Below are positions 1,493-51,851 of a stretch of DNA of 64,000 nucleotides, piece after piece. The stretch covers positions 372,001 to 436,000 of the forward strand of contig NZ_JAFBBR010000001.1 of NCBI RefSeq assembly GCF_016907295.1, in the 5' to 3' direction. Origin of the DNA: Microbacterium dextranolyticum (lineage in GTDB: Bacteria; Actinomycetota; Actinomycetes; Actinomycetales; Microbacteriaceae). The translations under genes were made by a program, and so were the position numbers. A model generated the notes under the pieces. That model had not been told where the DNA came from. It searched no databases and saw nothing but the letters and a program-made list of their open reading frames with translations. Positions within the stretch are counted from its first letter, which is position 1. Each line of letters starts with the position of its first letter.

Positions 1493-2815
1493 TCAGGGGC
1501 GCAGCGGGTCGCCGGCGAGAACCGGCGCGACCGGGGATGCCGCGGTCACCAGTCGATCCTCGACGTCGAACTCGTTGCGCACGCCCCGACGGAAGCCGAC
1601 CCAGCCGATGAAGAAGCCGAGCGCGGCGACGATCGACACCCCGGCGTACACGCCGCTCGGGTTGAGGACGAGCAGAGCCGGGGTCACGACGTTGAATCCG
1701 GCCGTCGCGAAGCGCGCCACGGCGTAGACCGTGCCCTGCGCGGTCGAGCGCAGCATGGTCGGGAACGATTCCTGCGTCCACACCTTCATGATCGTCTCGA
1801 AGCAGAACGCTCCCGCGAACGTCGACACGAGCACCGACACGATGAGCGCGGGCAGGGTGAAGCCGAAGACGACCGGCACGAGGTTCGCCGCGACGACGGC
1901 GATCGACCCGGCGACGAAGTACGACATCCGCCAGCGCGTGTCGGCCACCGCCATGAACCACACGGCGCCGAGGATCGCGGCGGGCATCGCGAGCAGCGTC
2001 CAGGTCTGGTACTCGTTCACCGGGATGCCGGCGACGTTGACCGCCACGAAGGGACCGAAGCTGCCGGCGACGCTGACGGCAACGGAGGCGAGCGTGTAGT
2101 ACACCAGCAGCGTCACGAACGGGCGGCGGTACGGCGCGCGGCCGAAGTCGCGCAGACGGCCCCGCTCGGCCCGGACGGTCTGCACACCGCTGAGGCGTTC
2201 GTCGCGGGCGGCGATCCACGATGCCGACTCGGGGATCGTCAGGCGCAGCAGCAGGACGACGATGCCCACGCCGCCGAATGCGGCGAACATGATGCGGCCT
2301 CCGGTCTCGCCGAGCGCGCCGAAGAAGATGCCGATGAGGACGGCCAGCAGGATGCCGAACCCGCCGAGCAGGTTCGAGAAGACGAGGATCTTGCCCCGGT
2401 TGCGGTCGGTCGCCGCCTCGGAGATCGAGGCGAGGGCGGCGGGGAGGTCCGCGCCGACGCCGAGGCCGATCAGGGCGATGCCGGGGAGCAGGAGACCGAT
2501 GGAGACCCCGAGGAACGGGGTGAGGGAACCGAGGACGATGAGGGTCATCGTGACGAGGAAGACGCGTCGGCGCCCGAATCGGTCGGCGAGCCTGCCGCCG
2601 ACGAGCGAGCCCACCGCGACACCGGCGGTGAGGACACCGGTCAGCAGCCCGACCTGGTCGAACGTGAGCCCGGCCGCTCCCGGAGCCGGTGACTGGAACA
2701 GCACCAGAGCGACGGCGATGCCGGTCGTCGCTGCGGCGTCGACGAACGTCGCCATTCCGCAGACGAAGCCCACCCACCAGGGGTTGGGAGAGGTGCGAGC
2801 GAGGGTGGCGCTCAT
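1493..2815 (-). CDS. MFS transporter
   Basis: 440 aa, about 12 hydrophobic segments. The loop 2-3 signature G-G-R-L-A-D-R-F-G-R-R-R is at 73-84, and a large central loop separates the two six-helix halves. Two ATGs lie six bases apart; AAAGGAG is 7 nt before the second and only 1 nt before the first, so the second (complement of 2813-2815) is chosen. It resembles metabolite/sugar:proton symporters of the MFS; the substrate is unknown. The position between a LacI gene and two hydrolases suggests it imports the compound that the hydrolases process. Confidence 0.8.
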   Translation of the reverse strand: MSATLARTSPNPWWVGFVCGMATFVDAAATTGIAVALVLFQSPAPGAAGLTFDQVGLLTGVLTAGVAVGSLVGGRLADRFGRRRVFLVTMTLIVLGSLTPFLGVSIGLLLPGIALIGLGVGADLPAALASISEAATDRNRGKILVFSNLLGGFGILLAVLIGIFFGALGETGGRIMFAAFGGVGIVVLLLRLTIPESASWIAARDERLSGVQTVRAERGRLRDFGRAPYRRPFVTLLVYYTLASVAVSVAGSFGPFVAVNVAGIPVNEYQTWTLLAMPAAILGAVWFMAVADTRWRMSYFVAGSIAVVAANLVPVVFGFTLPALIVSVLVSTFAGAFCFETIMKVWTQESFPTMLRSTAQGTVYAVARFATAGFNVVTPALLVLNPSGVYAGVSIVAALGFFIGWVGFRRGVRNEFDVEDRLVTAASPVAPVLAGDPLRP

Positions 2816-2909
2816 GGTCATACTCCTTTGTACGTGCGGATGAAGGAAAACGGCGGCGGCATCCGTGCCCGACATCGGTCCTTCCGGGCATCGGTGCCGT
2901 CGAGACACA

Positions 2910-2927
2910 AGCTATACCGATTTAGCT
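2910..2927. promoter_or_regulatory. candidate LacI operator overlapping a promoter
   Basis: An imperfect 18-bp inverted repeat AGCTATACCGATTTAGCT with outer arms AGCTA/TAGCT lies 95 bp upstream of the MFS start and 42 bp beyond the stop of the LacI gene. On the minus strand it contains TATAGCT, a possible -10, with TTGCCG just upstream. Size and position suit autoregulated or local control by the adjacent LacI protein; this is inference. Confidence 0.4.
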
Positions 2928-2968
2928 GGAACGGCAAGACCCGCTCGCACACGACGAAAGAGGGCGAT

Positions 2969-4045
2969 TCAGTCGCGAGGCGGGGCGATCGAGGCGCCGT
3001 CGGTCGGAGGCATCCGCAGTCGTTCGACGCGCGCCTCGCCGTGCTCCAGAAGGAGCTCGGCGGCACGGCGCCCGATCTCGACCTGCGGCAGGCGCAGCGA
3101 CACGAGTGCGGGGTCGGATGCCGCGGCGAGCAGGCCGCCGTCGAACGACACGAGCGACACGTCGGTCGGTACGTGGAGCCCCGCGCGCCGCAGGGCGTTG
3201 CCCACGCCGATCGCGACGGCGTCGTTGATGCAGACGAGGGCGCGAGGGACGACGCCGTCGGCCAGCAGTCGCTGCGCGGCGGCGAACCCGTTGCGCACGT
3301 CCCAGTCGTCGTCGATCGCGACCTCTCCCGCGAGATCGGTTCCGGCGTCCTGCAGGGCGTCGCGAAGCCCCCGCAGGCGCAGGGGGAGGGCCATCGGCCC
3401 CCACGCGTGCCAGGCGTCCCCTCCGGTGCGGCCCGGGGGGAACGTGCCGACGAACCAGATGCCTCGGTCGTGACCCGCCTGCAGCAGCAACTGCGCGGCG
3501 GCCGCACCGGCCTGCTCCTCGTCGGGGATCACGGACGAGACGGCCGGGCCCTCCGTCGCTTCGCAGTTCATCAGCACCAGCGGCACCCGCCGGGCCGACG
3601 CCGGCACCTCGACGCGGCGCGTGAACATCGACGCGTACAGGATGCCGTCGATGTCGCGTGCGATCAGATCGTCGAGAAAACGCTGTTCGACCTCGGCATC
3701 GCCCTGCGTGTCGACCGTGAACAGCAGCAGGCCCGCCTCGCGCAGGCGTTCCAGAGCCCCTCGCACCATCGAGTTGGCGAACGAGGTCGAACTGACGAAG
3801 TCCGAGACGAGCGCGACCGTCCCCGATCTGCCCGTGCGCAGCGTCTTCGCCGTGACGTTCGCACGGTAGCCGAGGTCGTCGGCGGCGCGGCGCACGCGGG
3901 CCATCGTCTCGGCGGACAGGCGCTGATCCAGGCGTCCGTTCAGAGCGAAGGATGCCGCGGAGCGGGAGACCCCGGCTCTCTCGGCGACCTCGGCGAGCGT
4001 GACGCGGCGTCCCGAACCGTCGGGTCTCGCGTCTTCGCTCGTCAC
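2969..4045 (-). CDS. LacI-family transcriptional regulator
   Basis: 358 aa. An N-terminal LacI helix-turn-helix (V-T-L-A-E-V-A-E-R-A-G-V-S followed by the hinge-proximal A-L-N-G) begins near residue 15. A periplasmic-binding-protein-like effector domain follows, with V-A-L-V-S-D-F and the typical D-G-I-L-Y segment. The GTG start at 4043-4045 gives a normal family length. The family represses sugar-related genes and releases DNA on ligand binding. It lies directly upstream of the MFS/hydrolase genes on the same strand, so these are its probable targets. The effector is unknown. Confidence 0.88.
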   Translation of the reverse strand: MTSEDARPDGSGRRVTLAEVAERAGVSRSAASFALNGRLDQRLSAETMARVRRAADDLGYRANVTAKTLRTGRSGTVALVSDFVSSTSFANSMVRGALERLREAGLLLFTVDTQGDAEVEQRFLDDLIARDIDGILYASMFTRRVEVPASARRVPLVLMNCEATEGPAVSSVIPDEEQAGAAAAQLLLQAGHDRGIWFVGTFPPGRTGGDAWHAWGPMALPLRLRGLRDALQDAGTDLAGEVAIDDDWDVRNGFAAAQRLLADGVVPRALVCINDAVAIGVGNALRRAGLHVPTDVSLVSFDGGLLAAASDPALVSLRLPQVEIGRRAAELLLEHGEARVERLRMPPTDGASIAPPRD

Positions 4046-4064
4046 TCCGCCGCCTCGGCCCCGC

Positions 4065-4874
4065 TCACAGGATGTCCGGGTCCTCGGATTCGACCGGCTC
4101 GGCGGAGAGCAGGTCGGCGACCGAGTCGAGGACCTCGTCGGGGCGGAAGGGGTAGCGCTCGATCTCGGCGTCGTCCGAGATGCCGGTGCGCACGAGGATC
4201 GTGTGCAGGCCCGCTTCGATGCCCGCCACGACGTCTGTGTCCATCCGGTCGCCGATCATCCCGGTGTTCTCGGAGTGCGCGCCGATGCGGTTCATCGCCG
4301 AGCGGAACATCATCGGGTTGGGCTTGCCGACGACGTACGGCGCCTTGCCGGTCGCGTGCGTGATGAGCGCGGCGAAAGACCCTGTCGCCGGAACGACGCC
4401 GAACGGGGTGGGTCCGGTGGCATCCGGGTTCGTGATGATGAACCGGGCGCCCGCGTTGATGAACCGGATCGCCTGCGTGATGCGGTCGAACGAGTAGTTG
4501 CGCGTCTCGCCGACGACGACGTAGTCCGGCTGCGTCTCGGTCATGACGTAACCCGCCTCGTGGAGGGCGGTCGTCAGGCCCGCCTCGCCGATGACGAACG
4601 CCGTGCCGCCCGGATGCTGCGAACGCAGGAACTGCGCCGTCGCGAGCGCCGAGGTCCAGATGCGATCCTCGGGCACCTCGAGCCCCGAGATCCGCAGCCG
4701 AGCACTGAGATCGCGCGGTGTGTAGAAGGGGTTGTTGGTCAGCACGAGGAAGGGTGTTCCCGTGTCGCGCCACTGCGCGAGAAGCTCCGCAGCCCCGGGG
4801 ATGGGCTTGTTCTCGTGGACGAGAACGCCGTCCATGTCTGTGAGCCAGCACTCGATATCGGCGCGTGTCCGCAT
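4065..4874 (-). CDS. HAD-IIA family phosphatase (NagD-like)
   Basis: 269 aa. HAD motif I is D-M-D-G-V at 13-17 (nucleophile Asp13), motif II T-N-N at 46-48, motif III Lys184 (V-G-K-P) and motif IV G-D-R-M-D-T-D at 208-214. The C2-type cap between motifs II and III is typical of NagD/p-nitrophenyl phosphatase-like enzymes, which dephosphorylate small sugar or nucleotide phosphates. ATG 4872-4874 is the start; TAGGGT lies 7 nt upstream, compatible with a leaderless transcript. It precedes the LacI gene with a 19-nt gap. The family is secure, the substrate is not. Confidence 0.85.
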   Translation of the reverse strand: MRTRADIECWLTDMDGVLVHENKPIPGAAELLAQWRDTGTPFLVLTNNPFYTPRDLSARLRISGLEVPEDRIWTSALATAQFLRSQHPGGTAFVIGEAGLTTALHEAGYVMTETQPDYVVVGETRNYSFDRITQAIRFINAGARFIITNPDATGPTPFGVVPATGSFAALITHATGKAPYVVGKPNPMMFRSAMNRIGAHSENTGMIGDRMDTDVVAGIEAGLHTILVRTGISDDAEIERYPFRPDEVLDSVADLLSAEPVESEDPDIL

Positions 4875-5874: not shown

Positions 5875-5957
5875 TCCTGCGGCATCCGTCCCGCTGCCGG
5901 GCGTTGCTGGTGCTGCGGGTGCCGCGAGGCGCTGCGAGTTGCTGTGGGTATGTGAGG

Positions 5958-6000
5958 CGCTGTGGGGTGCTGTGGGTGCTGTGGGTGCTGTGGGTGCCGC
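5958..6000. repeat. GTGCTGTGG simple tandem repeat
   Basis: Four to five near-exact copies of a 9-bp unit GTGCTGTGG run through here, with degenerate copies extending from about 5905 to 6030. No coding role is seen. Confidence 0.75.
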
Positions 6001-6061
6001 GAGGCGGTGCGGGGTGCTGTGGGTGCCGAGTCGGGGCCTTGTCCCCTTTTGTGCGGGTGCA

Positions 6062-6134
6062 TGTCCCACTTTCGGCGGAGCATGTCCTACTTTCTGTCGT
6101 TCGGCGAGTGTCCGGACGACAGAAAGTGGGACAC
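6062..6134. repeat. family A intergenic inverted repeat, copy 1
   Basis: Arms of 18 bp (6083-6100 and 6116-6133; core CCCACTTTCTGTCGT) with one mismatch flank a 15-nt loop. An additional left-arm fragment TGTCCCACTTTC lies just outside at 6062-6073. The same arm sequence recurs at 6.3 and 33.4-33.8 kb. Confidence 0.8.
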
Positions 6135-6264
6135 GGTGTGGCTGCGGCGGGAGTGGAGCGGAGGTGAGGCATCCATGTCGCGCTCGGGGGACATGGTGGG
6201 TGGGATGCCTGGTGAAGCGCATCCGGCTGGGGCAGGCGTGCCCGGCGTGGTCTTCCTTGGCGGG

Positions 6265-6341
6265 CGTGTCCCATTTTCTGCAGGCTGTGTCCCAGATTGT
6301 GCTGTTCGGCGAGGGGCCAAGCGACAGAAAGTGGGACACGG
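6265..6341. repeat. family A intergenic inverted repeat, copy 2
   Basis: A left-arm copy at 6265-6280 and a degenerate one at about 6288-6305 pair with the right arm GCGACAGAAAGTGGGACAC at 6321-6339. The loop again contains TTCGGCGAG. It sits about 60 bp beyond the mntR stop. Confidence 0.72.
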
Positions 6342-27960: not shown

Positions 27961-31294
<3,334 letters not shown>

Positions 31295-31295
<1 letters not shown>

Positions 31296-32386
31296 TGCTG
31301 CCCCGGATCGGTCTGGGGTGCATGAACCTCAGCCACGCCTACGGGCACGCCCCGAGCGATGCGGACGGTCTGGCGCTGCTGCGTGCGGCGCTCGACGACG
31401 GGGTCGCGATGTTCGACACCGCGACCCTCTACGGCGCGGGACGCAACGAGGAGCTCGTCGGTCGTGCCCTCGCCGGCCGTCGTGACGAGGTGCTGCTCGC
31501 GAGCAAGGGCGGCATGGCGATCGTCGACGGCGTGAAGGTCATCGACGGGCGTCCCGAGACGCTGCGCACGCAGGTGGATGCCTCGCTCCGCCGCCTCGGC
31601 GTCGACCACATCGACCTGTACTACCTGCACCGGTGGGACAAGACCGTGCCGATCGGCGAGAGCGTCGGCGCGCTCGCCGAGGCCGTCACCGCCGGGAGGA
31701 TCGGGGCGATCGGCCTCTCGGAGGTCTCCGTCGCGCGCCTGCACGAGGCGTTGCGGGTCGCTCCCATCGCTGCGGTGCAGAACGAGTACTCGCTGTGGAG
31801 TCGCAACCCCGAGCTCGGCATGCTCGAGGCGACGCGCGAGGCGGGCATCGCCCTCGTCGCGTTCTCGCCCGTCGGGCGGGGCTTCCTCGCGGACGGGATC
31901 GGCGAACCGGCGCTGCTGCCCGAGAAGGACATCCGGCGGGGCATGCCGCGGTTCCAGGGGGCGCATTGGGTCGCCAACGCTGCTCTGCTGCCGGCATGGC
32001 GTGCGCTCGCCGCGGAGGCCGGCGTCACGCCCGCCCAGCTCGCGCTCGTCTGGCTGCGCTCGCGCGGCCCGCACGTCGTCTCGATCCCGGGGACGACGAG
32101 CATCGCGCACCTTCGGGAGAACGCCGCCGCGGACGACCTCGTGATCGACGCCGGTCTGCTCGCGCGGGCGGGTGACCTGATCGACACCTCGACGGTCTCG
32201 GGGGAGCGTTACGCGCCCGGGCCCGCGGCGGAGGTCGATGCCGAGACGTTCGGCGATGCGGCATCCGACGCTCCTGCGGATGCGGTGGCCGCGGATGAGG
32301 CGGCGGGCGGGTCTGATCTGTCGCGCGGGTCTGCTGTGTCGTCTTGGGCGCGGTCCGCGGATGGGGCGACCGGAGCTCCCGCGTGA
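31295..32386 (+). CDS. aldo/keto reductase
   Basis: 363 aa. AKR fold with F-D-T-A-T-L-Y-G (catalytic Asp/Tyr), Lys in L-L-A-S-K-G-G and the His in L-Y-Y-L-H-R-W. About 310 residues form the barrel; the last ~50 (Ala/Asp/Ser-rich) are an unusual low-complexity tail. ATG at 31295 overlaps the ligC stop (TGATG). Its role in the pathway is unclear; it may reduce an aldehyde by-product or be a passenger in the operon. Confidence 0.82.
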
Positions 32387-33219
32387 AGGCGATCTCGTCG
32401 ATGGCGACCCGCCGGGTGCTCGCCGAGCTCGCCTCTTACGCACAGGCCGCAGGCCTTCCTGCGCTCGAGATCGAGTCCGTCGGCGGTGTCGACGCGGCTG
32501 CGCGAGTGGCATCCGGTGAGCCGTTCGACCTCGTCTTCCTCGCCGCGGATGCCCTCGCCCGCCTCGCGGGGGCGGGTCACGTCGTTCCGGCGTCGGTGAC
32601 CCCCTTGCTGCTGTCGCAGACCGCCGTCGCGGTGCCGTCGGGGGCAGGGGACCCGGCGGACGCGCACCGTGCGGTGGGCGCTGGCGCGGGGGATTTCGGC
32701 GCGGGGTATCGTGGCGCGGCGGATTCGGGCGTGATGGATTCCGGTGCGGCGGCTTCCGGTGCGGCGGATTCCGGTGTGGCGGCGCCGATCGACGCCGCGG
32801 GCGGGATCGCGCCCGCGTTCCCCGATGCCGCCGCGATGCGGGATGCGCTGCGCGCAACGTCCCGCATCGGATATTCGACGGGGCCGAGCGGCACGGCACT
32901 CCTCCGCCTCGTCGAGCAGTGGGGCCTCTCCGACGAGCTGCACGGCCGCTTGGTGCAGGCGCGTCCTGGCATCCCTGTCGCGCGCTCTCTCGCCAACGGT
33001 GACGTCGACCTCGGATTCCAGCAGCTCAGCGAACTCGTCGGCGCGGACGGCGTGCGGATCCTGGGTGTGCTTCCGACCGACTGCGCGATCGACACGGTCT
33101 TCGCGGGAGCCGTCGCGTCAGCCGCCGCCGATGCGGCCGCCGCTGCGGACATGCTGGAGTTCCTGCATGTCGCCACCCGCCGCGGCGCGGCAGCCGCGCA
33201 CAGCTTCATCGCGCTCTGA
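32383..33219 (+). CDS. ModA-like substrate-binding protein without signal peptide
   Basis: 278 aa resembling type II solute-binding proteins of the molybdate/extracellular-binding family (F-D-L-V-F-L-A-A-D-A-L, T-S-R-I-G-Y-S-T-G-P-S-G-T-A, G-D-V-D-L-G-F-Q-Q-L-S-E-L). It starts with GTG overlapping the AKR stop and has no secretion signal or lipobox, so it is probably cytoplasmic. Residues ~111-135 are five tandem pentapeptides (G-A/V-x-D/A-S) encoded by 15-bp repeats. The 3' end, including the stop, is the first unit of a 17-bp tandem repeat. Function unknown. Confidence 0.72.
   Translation: MKAISSMATRRVLAELASYAQAAGLPALEIESVGGVDAAARVASGEPFDLVFLAADALARLAGAGHVVPASVTPLLLSQTAVAVPSGAGDPADAHRAVGAGAGDFGAGYRGAADSGVMDSGAAASGAADSGVAAPIDAAGGIAPAFPDAAAMRDALRATSRIGYSTGPSGTALLRLVEQWGLSDELHGRLVQARPGIPVARSLANGDVDLGFQQLSELVGADGVRILGVLPTDCAIDTVFAGAVASAAADAAAAADMLEFLHVATRRGAAAAHSFIAL
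32713..32787 (+). repeat. in-frame 15-bp tandem repeat in the ModA-like gene
   Basis: Five units such as GGTGCGGCGGATTCC encode G-A-A-D-S type pentapeptides. This insertion is absent from the expected fold. Confidence 0.75.
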
Positions 33220-33339
33220 CCTTCATCGCGCTCTGACCTTCATCGCGCTCTGACCCGGGTCGCGCTCTGACCCGGGTCGCGCTCTGACCTTCATCGCGCT
33301 CTGACCCGGGTCGCGCTCTGACCCGGGTCCCTCAGAACG
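33204..33339. repeat. 17-bp tandem repeat starting inside the gene end
   Basis: Seven full units (CTTCATCGCGCTCTGAC four times, CCGGGTCGCGCTCTGAC three times) and one degenerate unit. The first unit contains the last codons F-I-A-L-stop of the ModA-like gene, so the gene's 3' end was amplified into the intergenic region. Confidence 0.9.
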
Positions 33340-33406
33340 GTCGTGCTCTGGCCTGGTCCGCTCTGGCCGGGCTCGTCACCTCGCAGCTGTGCTCCCGCCG
33401 CCGGGC

Positions 33407-33460
33407 CGTGTCCCACTTTCTGTTGTTCCGGATGCCTGGAAGCGACAGTTTCCGGGACAT
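33407..33460. repeat. family A intergenic inverted repeat, copy 3
   Basis: Left arm GTGTCCCACTTTCTGTTGTT (33408-33427) and a diverged right arm GCGACAGTTTCCGGGACA (33442-33459) around GGATGCCTGGAA. It is followed by GGGACA motifs at about 33454, 33475 and 33495. Confidence 0.75.
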
Positions 33461-33557
33461 GCCCCACCGCAATGGGGACATGCTTCGCCGAAACGGGGAC
33501 GCCTCCGGTTCGGCGCGTGAAAGCCACGGCACGGCGCGCCCGCATCTCACCCGGTCG

Positions 33558-33608
33558 TGTCCCACTTTCTGTCGTTTCGGATGCCTGCGAGCGACAGAAA
33601 GTGGGACA
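33558..33608. repeat. family A intergenic inverted repeat, copy 4
   Basis: Perfect 17-bp arms TGTCCCACTTTCTGTCG (33558-33574) and complement (33592-33608) with a 17-nt loop TTTCGGATGCCTGCGAG. The best-preserved copy. Confidence 0.88.
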
Positions 33609-33733
33609 TCCTTCACGTCAATGGGGACGGCCGTCGCCGAATCTGGGACATGCCTCACAGACGGGGGCGTCGCCGGTCTGGAGCGCGGATGCCAGTGTGG
33701 CGTGCGCCCCGGCGGAGTGCGTACCCCTCGGGC

Positions 33734-33832
33734 CGTGTCCCACTTTCTGTTGTTCGGGACGCCTGGAAGCGACAGTTTGTGGGACATCCCTCACCGAAAC
33801 TGGGACATGGCCCGCAGAAAGTGGGACACGGG
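33734..33832. repeat. family A intergenic inverted repeat, copy 5
   Basis: Left arm at 33736-33753 pairs with GCGACAGTTTGTGGGACA (33770-33786). Two more right-arm-like units end in TGGGACA (about 33801-33807 and 33823-33829), the last being an exact CAGAAAGTGGGACAC. Confidence 0.78.
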
Positions 33833-33915
33833 GGCGGAGAGGCGCCGCCGGCGGAATCGCCGGTCTCGCACCGTCGAGAGCGACTCGGGTCCCGCGGGCA
33901 GGGCAGAATGAGAGA

Positions 33916-35817
33916 ATGCCCGCTCTTCGTTCCCGCACTGTCACCCACGGCCGCAACATGGCCGGCGCCCGCGCACTGCTGCGCGCTGCCGGCGTCGACG
34001 CCGCCGACTTCGGCAAGCCGCTCATCGCGGTCGCGAACAGCTTCACCGAGTTCGTGCCCGGCCACACGCACCTCGCGCCGGTCGGACGCATCGTCTCCGA
34101 GGCGATCCACGCCGCGGGCGGCATCGCGCGCGAGTTCAACACGATCGCCGTCGACGACGGCATCGCGATGGGCCACGGCGGCATGCTCTACTCGCTGCCC
34201 TCGCGCGACCTGATCGCCGACTCGGTCGAGTACATGGTCAACGCGCACTGCGCCGACGCCCTGGTCTGCATCTCGAACTGCGACAAGATCACGCCCGGCA
34301 TGCTCATGGCAGCGCTCCGACTGAACATCCCCGTCGTGTTCGTCTCGGGTGGACCGATGGAGTCCGGCCGCGCCGTCCTCACCGACGGATCGGTGCGCAC
34401 GCTCGATCTCGTCGATGCGATCTCGGATGCCGTCAACGAGAACATCTCCGACGCCGACATCCAGCGCATCGAAGAGCAGGCCTGTCCCACGTGCGGATCG
34501 TGCTCGGGCATGTTCACCGCGAACTCGATGAACTGCCTCACCGAGGCGCTCGGGCTCTCGCTCCCCGGCAACGGGTCGGTCCTCGCGACCCACACGGCGC
34601 GCAAGGCCCTCTACGAGAAGGCCGGCGCCCTCGCGGTGCAGCTCGCGCACCGCTACTACGACGAGGACGACGCCTCGGTGCTGCCCCGCAACATCGCGAC
34701 CCCGGGCGCGTTCGCCAACGCCATGACCCTCGACATCGCGATGGGCGGGTCGACCAACACGATCCTGCACCTGCTCGCGGCCGCGCACGAGGCGGGCGTC
34801 GAGTTCGGTCTCGATGAGATCGATGCCATCTCGCGCCGCGTTCCGTGTCTCGCGAAGGTCGCGCCCAACCCGGCCTACGGCCGCATGTACTACATGGAGG
34901 ACGTCCACCGCGCCGGCGGCATCCCCGCCATCCTCGGCGAGCTCCGCCGCGGCGGCCTGCTCGACGAGTCGGTGCACACGGTGCACGCGGATGGTCTCGA
35001 CGACTGGCTCGGCATCTGGGACATCCGCGGCGGCAGCGCGTCGGACGAGGCCCTCGACCTCTGGCATGCCGCGCCCGGCGGGCGCCGCTCGTCGACCGCG
35101 TTCTCGCAGTCCGAGCGCTGGACCGAGCTCGATGAGGATGCCGCGGACGGCTGCATCCGCGATGTCGCCCACGCCTACTCGGCGGACGGTGGCCTCGCCG
35201 TGCTGCGCGGCAACATCGCCGTCGACGGTGCCGTCGTCAAGACCGCCGGCGTCGACCCGTCGATCTGGACGTTCTCGGGCCCCGCGGTCGTCTGCGAGTC
35301 GCAGGACGAGGCGGTCGAGAAGATCCTCGCCAAGCAGGTGAAAGCCGGCGACGTCGTCGTCATCCGTTACGAGGGCCCCAAGGGTGGTCCCGGTATGCAG
35401 GAGATGCTCTACCCGACGTCGTTCCTCAAGGGACGCGGCCTCGGTAAGCAGTGCGCGCTCATCACCGACGGTCGCTTCTCGGGCGGCACCTCGGGCCTCT
35501 CGATCGGGCACGTCTCGCCCGAAGCGGCATCCGGCGGCGTCATCGCGCTCGTCGAGGACGGCGACATCATCTCGATCGACATCCCGACGCGGGCGATCTC
35601 GCTCGAGGTCGAGCCCGCCGTGCTCGAGGAGCGGCGCGCGCGTCTGCTCGAGGAGGGCGGCTACCGCCCTCGCTCGCGCGAGCGCGTGGTCTCGCCCGCG
35701 CTCCGGGCCTACGCGGCCATGGCGCTGTCGGCCGACAAGGGTGCCGTGCGCGATGTGGATGCCGTCGAGCGCGCCATGGCCCGCGTCGCCCGCGACGAGG
35801 CCTCCGTCACCGTCTGA
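33916..35817 (+). CDS. ilvD: dihydroxy-acid dehydratase
   Basis: 633 aa IlvD. Cluster ligands and catalytic residues are conserved: N-C122-D-K-I-T-P-G, C190-P-T-C193-G-S-C196-S-G-M-F and the C-terminal [10 protein letters not shown]. It dehydrates 2,3-dihydroxy-isovalerate and -methylvalerate in valine/isoleucine synthesis, cytosolic, with an Fe-S cluster and Mg2+. ATG 33916 gives the usual N-terminus (R-S-R-T-V-T-H-G); CAGAAT lies 6 nt upstream, so it may be leaderless. No other branched-chain genes are nearby. Confidence 0.96.
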
Positions 35818-35871
35818 CCTCGCCGGCGCACGCGTCGGCGCCGATCGGACCACGCTCCTGCGCCTGCCGGC

Positions 35872-35937
35872 ACAGGAGGATCGGCGAGAACAGGACGTTC
35901 GTGCGCCCGGGCATCCTGTGTTCGCCGATTGTCCTGT
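35872..35937. repeat. family B intergenic inverted repeat, copy 1
   Basis: 24-bp arms (35872-35895, 35914-35937) with core GATCGGCGA and ACAGGA ends, 20 of 24 positions paired, loop of 18 nt. Confidence 0.85.
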
Positions 35938-35940
35938 TTT

Positions 35941-36006
35941 CCTCGACGTCGTTCGCAACACGCCTCGACGTCGTTCGCAACACCCGTCGGCGCCGCCCGT
36001 GACACG
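35941..36006. repeat. 22-bp direct repeat between the family B copies
   Basis: Two near-identical units (35941-35962, 35963-35984; core CTCGACGTCGTTCGCAACAC) followed by one or two diverged units that run into the second family B arm. Confidence 0.8.
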
Positions 36007-36023
36007 CGTCGGCGTCTTTCGGT

Positions 36024-36089
36024 ACAGGAGAATCGGCCAGAACAGGATGCCCGTGGCGCGAAGCATCCTGTCGTCGCCGATCCTCCTGT
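36024..36089. repeat. family B intergenic inverted repeat, copy 2
   Basis: 24-bp arms (36024-36047, 36066-36089), again ACAGGA ... ATCGGC ... ACAGGA, with an 18-nt loop, the same size as copy 1. Confidence 0.85.
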
Positions 36090-36188
36090 TCGGGGAAGCT
36101 CCACCCGCCGCCGCCGCCGCCGGCACCCGCGCCATTCGTACCGGCCGCCGGCCCCGCTCCCGCACCCGCCGCCCGAACGCGCCCCGGC

Positions 36189-36833
36189 CTACGCCGCGAC
36201 GCGGAACGTCCGCGCGAAGCGGTCGAGCAGTTCGGGGGCGCCGGTGAGCACCCGCACGATCCCCGTCTCGATCGCGCGCGCGGGGGCGAGATCGCCCGAC
36301 AGAAGACGTCGGATGCCCGGACCCGCCGCGAACGACAGATCGACGTCCTCGGCGCCGCCGCGCGCGATCGCGAGAGTGGGGCCCGCGACGCGCACCTGCA
36401 GGTCGACCTCGCCGAGCCGTGCCGCGTACGCCGTCGCCGGGAGCAGTGCTGCGGCATCCGCCTGGAACGTCGAACGCAACGCAATCGTGAGCGCATCGGG
36501 AGTCACGACCTGCTCGTCGCGTGGTTCGTCGAGCGCTTTGAAGCCCCACGCGCTGAGCGCGAGCACCACCGGTTCGAGCTCGTGCCCGTACGCGGTGAGC
36601 TCGTAGATGATGATCCGCGACCGCGGGGCCCGGCGGATGATGCCTGCCGCCTGCAGTTCTTTCAGCCGCGTTGCGAGCACGTTCGAGGGGATGCGCGGCA
36701 GCCCCGCCGCCAGTTCGCCGTAGCGCCGCGGCCCCACGAGCAGGTCGCGGACGATGAGCAGCGCCCACCGTTCACCGACCAGCTCGAGGGCGCGGGTGAC
36801 CCCGCAGTACTGGCCGTACTCGCGCGCCGCCAC
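36189..36833 (-). CDS. HxlR-family transcriptional regulator
   Basis: 214 aa. The N-terminal HxlR winged helix contains Y-G-Q-Y-C-G-V-T-R-A-L-E-L-V-G-E-R-W-A-L-L-I-V-R-D-L-L (Cys near residue 10) and P-R-R-Y-G-E-L-A. An additional C-terminal domain of about 100 residues is SCP2/sterol-binding-like in position. GTG 36831-36833 is 7 nt beyond the VOC gene stop, so the pair is an operon. A near-perfect HxlR-type palindrome stands before the VOC gene. Confidence 0.82.
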   Translation of the reverse strand: MAAREYGQYCGVTRALELVGERWALLIVRDLLVGPRRYGELAAGLPRIPSNVLATRLKELQAAGIIRRAPRSRIIIYELTAYGHELEPVVLALSAWGFKALDEPRDEQVVTPDALTIALRSTFQADAAALLPATAYAARLGEVDLQVRVAGPTLAIARGGAEDVDLSFAAGPGIRRLLSGDLAPARAIETGIVRVLTGAPELLDRFARTFRVAA

Positions 36834-51788: not shown

Positions 51789-51851
51789 CGTTCGGAGGCG
51801 CCGCTTCGCGGGTGTCGTCGCGCAGAACCCGCGCATCGGCGCCTCCGAACG
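51789..51851. repeat. long-loop intergenic palindrome (type D)
   Basis: Perfect 15-bp arms CGTTCGGAGGCGCCG (51789-51803) and complement (51837-51851), with an inner perfect 7-bp stem CGCGGGT/ACCCGCG (51807-51813, 51827-51833). It sits 20 bp after the racemase gene and could act as its terminator. Confidence 0.8.

Follow-up and report, generated by a model that had tools for sequence, protein, structure and literature searches.

What repeated element occupies the gene-free gaps of the Microbacterium dextranolyticum chromosome, and what keeps it there? The question is raised by a 64,000-nucleotide stretch (contig NZ_JAFBBR010000001.1, positions 372,001 to 436,000; here called the window, whose numbering is used below) in which an initial annotation noted a dispersed intergenic inverted repeat, Family A, and suggested mobile-element derivatives, structured RNAs or protein-binding arrays. 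Here we report that Family A almost certainly has a cognate partner, judging from sequence comparisons: the gene of a predicted fusion of an AbiEi-like DNA-binding part with a Vsr-type nuclease, which lies between two Family A arrays outside the window. The arrays are probably the repeat set of that nuclease in a REPIN-RAYT-like system built on a homing-type enzyme, and we lean slightly towards the further step that the nuclease spreads or maintains them. The genome of M. dextranolyticum is designated G000; other G-numbers denote other genomes and L-numbers denote loci.

The five copies lie where the initial annotation had placed them, three at 33409-33828 and two at 6040-6338. Their layout is regular: TGTCCC is followed by GGGACA 45 bp further on (start to start) and then by more GGGACA units on one side. 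On the plus strand, element 1 (33409..33480) has TGTCCC at 33409 and GGGACA at 33454 (+45) and 33475 (+21); element 2 (33558..33650) has TGTCCC at 33558 and GGGACA at 33603 (+45) and 33645 (+42), with a middle unit decayed to GGGGACG; and element 3 (33736..33828) has TGTCCC at 33736 and GGGACA at 33781 (+45), 33802 (+21) and 33823 (+21). On the minus strand, element 4 (6040..6133) has units at 6040, 6062 and 6083 (TGTCCT), an inverted GGGACA at 6128 and additional units at its left, and element 5 (6267..6338) has units at 6267 and 6288 and an inverted GGGACA at 6333. The trailing GGGACA units described earlier are thus present, mostly at exact 21-bp steps and some at 20-25 bp, and one gap often holds several elements, predominantly in the same direction.

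Searched with at most three mismatches, the Family A arm has 11 matches in the window where 0.17 are expected, a number that none of 100 shuffles reaches; with at most two mismatches it has 66 in the genome of 3,181,200 bases, where the reversed pattern is absent. The claimed dispersal therefore holds. The array pattern TGTCCC-N39-GGGACA-N15-GGGACA matches at 38 places in G000, and 72 of 366 genomes of the genus carry it (reversed control 0 in the rows shown), so that the arm is present both in the rest of the chromosome and in relatives. The intergenic position was also confirmed for all 34 array clusters of G000 and a second genome, G008, by a heuristic gene call that missed the nuclease gene itself at four of them, all at the two nuclease loci. 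These clusters lie in 16 convergent, 14 tandem and 4 divergent gaps. As the initial annotation had stated, no transposase is linked: none was recognised by reading the open reading frames at 30000-36500, and PF01797, the Y1/HUH transposase family of RAYT type, has no match at E<=0.01 in the genome, compared with matches in 6 of 14 control genomes. A RAYT-type gene is thus absent, and an unrelated enzyme holds the equivalent architectural place.

The nature of the unit follows from a comparison of its arms. The changes between copies had been described as compensating, but the two arms of one element match no better than arms taken from different elements. In G000 (39 elements), agreement within and between elements was 0.569 and 0.570 at arm positions 7-11 (p 0.54) and 0.748 and 0.770 at positions 12-17 (p 0.92); in G008 (29 elements) the values were 0.683 and 0.713 (p 0.99) and 0.632 and 0.716 (p 0.999), positions 1-6 being set by the search pattern itself. 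Family A is therefore not a hairpin family, either as RNA or as cruciform. The first extra unit of an array, which has no inverted partner, bears the same motif, and we read the unit as a site in duplex DNA of about 17 bp, consisting of TGTCCC, a variable A/T-rich step and then mostly xxG. Of the conserved-arm inverted repeat initially proposed, the unit and its spacing stand, and what is kept is the geometry of an array and not a hairpin.

The candidate partner was found at two array loci at which a gene of about 310 amino acids lies between two opposed arrays. In the genome studied here it is located at G000:C1:2229731-2230696 on the minus strand and adjoins pfkA. Homologues at E<=1e-50 are present in 133 of the 366 genomes (at most six candidates scored per genome), with one such match in G000 and one or two in the other genomes listed. 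Among the 30 nearest homologues, at least two exact units occur within 270 bp on both sides in 27 and at least one in 29, against a background of 0.05 exact units per 270 bp; among 20 further, previously unused homologues the corresponding numbers are 17 and 20. All 30 nearest homologues adjoin pfkA; the gene is therefore inherited in place. Gene (E<=1e-95) and arrays also coincide by genome, with both in 41, the gene only in 17, arrays only in 31 and neither in 277 (Fisher 2e-21, kinship ignored). Units that bracket, and covary with, the gene of a protein with DNA-binding and nuclease folds support the terms REP-like and protein-binding arrays, both of which had been offered initially.

By its predicted fold (AF2 model, pLDDT 92.7), the protein joins an AbiEi-like part containing a winged helix-turn-helix, at the N-terminus, to a nuclease of the Vsr/I-Bth0305I type at the C-terminus. 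The model agrees with the Vsr/I-Bth0305I nuclease fold, and the protein is a probable DNA-cutting enzyme. In the nuclease part, all 56 rows agree at E196, D229 and D256, and E240, D242 and H246 are conserved at 90% or more; together these residues form a putative catalytic set.

The letters of the unit go with the protein. At unit positions 12-14 the triplet is mainly CTG in G000 (55 of 78 arms) and mainly CGG in G008 (39 of 58). When the arms at the gene were matched to dispersed arms, those of the same genome ranked first in six of nine cases and within the top three of ten in all nine (permutation p 5e-5). This test used ten hand-chosen genomes, of which G175 had no gene row, with 53 of 69 listed elements typed for the nine; gene-flanking and near-identical elements were left out, and the elements of G000 were counted in both directions. 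Of the protein's 171 variable columns, residue 31 is the most closely tied to the triplet (z 5.3). The model places it where the second helix of the winged helix-turn-helix ends, and we take this helix to be the recognition helix. Values of z above 4 also occur in four columns of the middle part and four of the nuclease part, and the regional means (1.59, 1.50 and 1.20) do not single out the winged helix. In 30 genomes, the commonest triplet ends in G wherever residue 31 is arginine (23 of 23) and never where it is not (7 of 7), and in 20 hold-out loci G is commonest at position 14 in the 18 with R31 and not in the two without it. Considering only units within 420 bp of the gene, 41 of 41 loci with R31 have G, while of the nine others seven do not and two are mixed with G leading; residue 31 thus follows base 14 in 48 of 50 loci. 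These counts suggest a joint evolution of the protein and its site by way of the recognition helix.

Family A is not alone in its genome. PF18741 has ten matches in G000, of which nine are small genes after the large helicase L080 (flank score 26) is set aside. Flank scores, obtained by comparing 400 bp on one side with the inverted opposite side, are 82 for A, 74 for C, 54 for G, 48 for D, 44 for B, 43 for H, 31 for F (L074), 28 for E (L077) and 22 for L081, while 33 control genes of the window average 22.5 with a maximum of 30. Seven of the nine genes exceed this maximum, six of them clearly and L074 barely, and each of the seven appears to be bracketed by a different private repeat. The flanks of E share an exact 14-mer, and a pattern for E gives eight matches, five of them at the E gene, and none when reversed. 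In an nhmmer search of 19% of the genome, A, C, D, F and G had copies elsewhere than at the gene and B and H had none, the reversed sequence giving no match with any of the seven models; since the Family A loci had been fetched for having A, only the other families count as a sample. For B, C and H, simple patterns lacked specificity.

Three of these families occur in the window: A, G and, with a weaker assignment, B. The Family G element at 51792..51848 (GAGGCGCCG...CGGCGCCTC) corresponds to the private repeat of a third nuclease gene (L076, G000:C1:2977313), with a best nhmmer E of 1.1e-10. Two Family B elements are found at 35872..35937 (ACAGGA-18-ACAGGA ... TCCTGT-18-TCCTGT) and 36024..36089. 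The best match of the first is the private repeat of another nuclease gene, L078 (G000:C1:1375513), and the second aligns to the flanks of that gene as well. Alignment scores against the two L078 flanks are 39 and 42 for the first element, with shuffles reaching no more than 30, and 28 and 37 for the second, with shuffles reaching no more than 26 and 30. Among seven other genes the highest score, 35, belongs to L074, against 42 for L078. A pattern written from the window copies of B gives nine matches at three mismatches compared with three for its reverse.

The arrangement extends beyond this species. A scan of named genomes for another subfamily of the nuclease yielded 80 loci, mostly from Microbacterium but also from Leifsonia, Mycetocola and Agromyces, of which 76 were usable (four were dropped for short flanks). 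A flank score of at least 34 was reached at 51 of the 76 loci, compared with 3 of 210 neighbour genes. When flanks of 300 bp were compared, 46 of the 76 passed, as did 18 of 840 mismatched pairs (72 of 912 pairs with homologous flanks were set aside). The core word is not constant across loci. Where it occurs at least five times (58 loci), 84 of the 127 same-strand steps shorter than 70 bp measure 18 or 19 bp, as against 2 of 57 in the control, which was drawn from 75 of 173 neighbour genes. At 35 of the 76 loci the commonest word forms an 18/19-bp pair on at least one side (both sides at 23, one side at 12); 36 have no such pair and five had no word. This combination, in which the letters vary but a spacing of about two helical turns recurs, is the trace expected of DNA-binding proteins that belong to one family and differ in specificity.

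A class-wide search with PF18741 returned mainly large helicases, and 20 of the 25 rows with an open frame below 500 amino acids were picked by hand, giving 20 loci defined by a PF18741 match and small size. Nine of them pass, as against 0 of 380 mismatched pairs. The set includes one locus from the same family (passes, 172) and one from the same genus (fails, 24), and outside the family 8 of 18 pass. At one small PF18741 gene outside the family (L240, in G505), runs of a CGTTGACCGTGCGTCCCAAAC-type direct repeat were seen on both flanks.

A mechanism can be proposed on this basis. The winged helix would read one unit, and the repetition of units would line up several subunits at intervals of about two helical turns (21 bp for Family A, 18-19 bp for the other subfamily). 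At the inverted pair, two nuclease domains would come to lie over the central spacer. If the DNA were cut or nicked and then repaired by copying another array, arrays would be duplicated, homogenised and slowly spread, with the nuclease gene itself staying put.

The closest known parallel is the REPIN-RAYT system. There, inverted doublets that are short and intergenic form tandem clusters, every single-copy, immobile RAYT gene has a repeat family of its own next to it, and arm changes are compensatory (PMC3116915, PMC3733652). The Family A enzyme gene is likewise non-mobile, adjoining pfkA in 30 of 30 loci, and has units to its left and right in 29 of these 30 and in 20 of the 20 further ones. 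Unlike that system, Family A has an AbiEi-Vsr fusion without homology to the Y1/HUH transposase that its genome lacks, its unit end carries no GTAG tag, its units form arrays at 18-21 bp, and its arms do not covary in the two genomes analysed. The EDxHD homing endonucleases (I-Bth0305I) also differ, since no intron or intein was seen here, the gene keeps one chromosomal place (30 of 30) and the presumed sites are dispersed multi-copy arrays. The C-terminal domain is shared with the Vsr endonuclease, DUF559 and REase_MTES_1575, whose Pfam name traces to a Vsr-type domain in a Microbacterium protein (PMC3710099); the Family A protein has in addition its N-terminal DNA-binding part and private flanking repeats.

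Several observations count against the proposed pairing and its mechanism. Below the flank threshold remain 25 of the 76 loci of the other subfamily and 11 of the 20 class loci, and in G000 two of nine genes, E (28) and L081 (22), lie within the control maximum of 30. Of the 72 genomes with arrays, 16 lack a gene match at E<=1e-50 (at most six candidates scored in each); one of these cases, G222, has 20 arrays, and its gene may be lost, unassembled or missed among the scored candidates. In-frame stops interrupt 6 of the 30 nearest nuclease genes (L058, L060, L065, L069, L070 and L073), and arrays persist despite such stops (11 in G062, 13 in G372 and 7 in G374). The association of R31 with G14 involves about four changes on the tree (starred branches force one) and cannot be significant when counted as independent pairs, so that it is suggestive and not proof. 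Finally, genome comparisons gave no direct view of array movement. One array of G140 and G240 is absent in G120, with ragged edges that fit a deletion as well as an insertion, and a clean empty site sought at a second locus was not found, the locus aligning nearly full length in both other genomes; the movement of arrays is therefore proposed indirectly.

The most serious alternative, which we nevertheless consider unlikely, is that the AbiEi-like protein is an autoregulator at its own gene, the dispersed arrays being its regulon or silencing sites and the nuclease domain secondary. The N-terminal part does match AbiEi, and AbiEi antitoxins autoregulate at inverted repeats. A regulator would not readily account for arrays downstream as well as upstream of the nuclease gene, for the invariance of E196, D229 and D256, or for the preference of the 34 clusters for convergent over divergent gaps, which is a poor placing for operators. 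Few array places of G000, moreover, are shared with G008: a blastn comparison of 17 array loci of G000 with 14 of G008 (at least 14, the G008 set being taken from listings) gave three common places by reading aligned coordinates, namely the nuclease locus, L015/L187 and L022/L197.

A role in genome defence or self-marking, in which the nuclease attacks invading DNA and the arrays serve as decoys, antidotes or storage sites, is improbable. It would agree with the Vsr-type fold and with weak matches to AbiEi and homing-endonuclease models of PADLOC, but it leaves unexplained tandem arrays whose letters change together. By comparison with the AbiEi antitoxin of the AbiE type IV toxin-antitoxin system, the AbiEi-like part here is fused to a nuclease. 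At the two nuclease loci read, the gene adjoins pfkA and, in G000, an IS3-like element. Neither a partner toxin nor a methylase was noticed among these neighbours, which were read without a systematic search, and no AbiEii toxin gene was seen there, a reading that covers the loci of G000 and G120.

Still less credible is a family of structured RNAs or transcription terminators. The inverted outer arms and the prevalence of convergent contexts would suit it, but there is no covariation within elements, the partnerless direct units bear the same motif, and no Rfam model matches the window at the gathering threshold.

The remaining option, that the arrays are non-autonomous derivatives of a DDE transposon of conventional type, for instance IS21 (a miniature inverted-repeat transposable element of an insertion sequence, first suggested by the iterated terminal units), can be dismissed almost entirely: IS21-family ends resemble the Family A arrays in their multiple direct repeats and terminal CA (PMC10122671), but no istA or istB was seen inside the arrays read, the arrays bracket the nuclease gene instead, and none of seven IS21-model matches in G000 (one above the cut-off) has iterated TGTCCC ends at the fetched loci, the IS21 copies of relatives not having been examined, nor other insertion sequence families individually.

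The pairing of Family A with the AbiEi-Vsr nuclease thus looks like an unrecognised kind of bacterial repeat-spreading or repeat-keeping system, and no paper joining DUF559/AbiEi nucleases with dispersed repeats was found in the open-access literature. If this is true, the REPIN-RAYT arrangement would have been invented twice, independently, and the persistence of enzyme-repeat pairs would become open to comparative study. Whether it represents an unnoticed class of intragenomic repeat systems in Actinomycetes is evenly balanced in our judgement. Each AbiEi-Vsr fusion, currently annotated as DUF559, endonuclease domain-containing or hypothetical, would then be a homing-type enzyme that reads its private iterated sites and propagates or maintains them, with several parallel pairs per genome that have different codes, often a step of about two turns, and enzyme and sites co-evolving. 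Uncharacterised actinobacterial nucleases would gain a testable partner and orphan-looking dispersed repeats an enzyme, and the many private codes, with their shared spacing and the link between residue 31 and base 14, would form a natural set for learning protein-DNA recognition.

Some further features of the array loci were recorded. The neighbours of the G000 array at 943.9 kb (L013 3863-4229, with L016 4039-4147) adjoin the nuclease gene in G008 (L186), which indicates that a rearrangement ran through or beside Family A arrays. At L015 3895-6382, a stretch of about 2.3 kb that is absent at the aligned place of G008 (L187) begins beside a Family A array and contains short-chain dehydrogenase-like and kinase-like frames. 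Downstream of the nuclease gene of G000, IS3-like transposase frames adjoin the array (L016, G000:C1:2225500-2234500, at about 2600-4150), and Family A matches continue beyond them, as if the insertion sequence had landed in the array. The window also contains two other repeats close to Family A. A 17-bp tandem repeat (TCGCGCTCTGACC followed by TTCA or CGGG) of about seven copies, unrelated to Family A, occupies 33209-33329 and begins on the final codons and stop of the upstream gene, and a G-rich imperfect tandem repeat of the GTGCTGTGGGTGCTG type lies at 5900-6035, immediately before the first Family A element.
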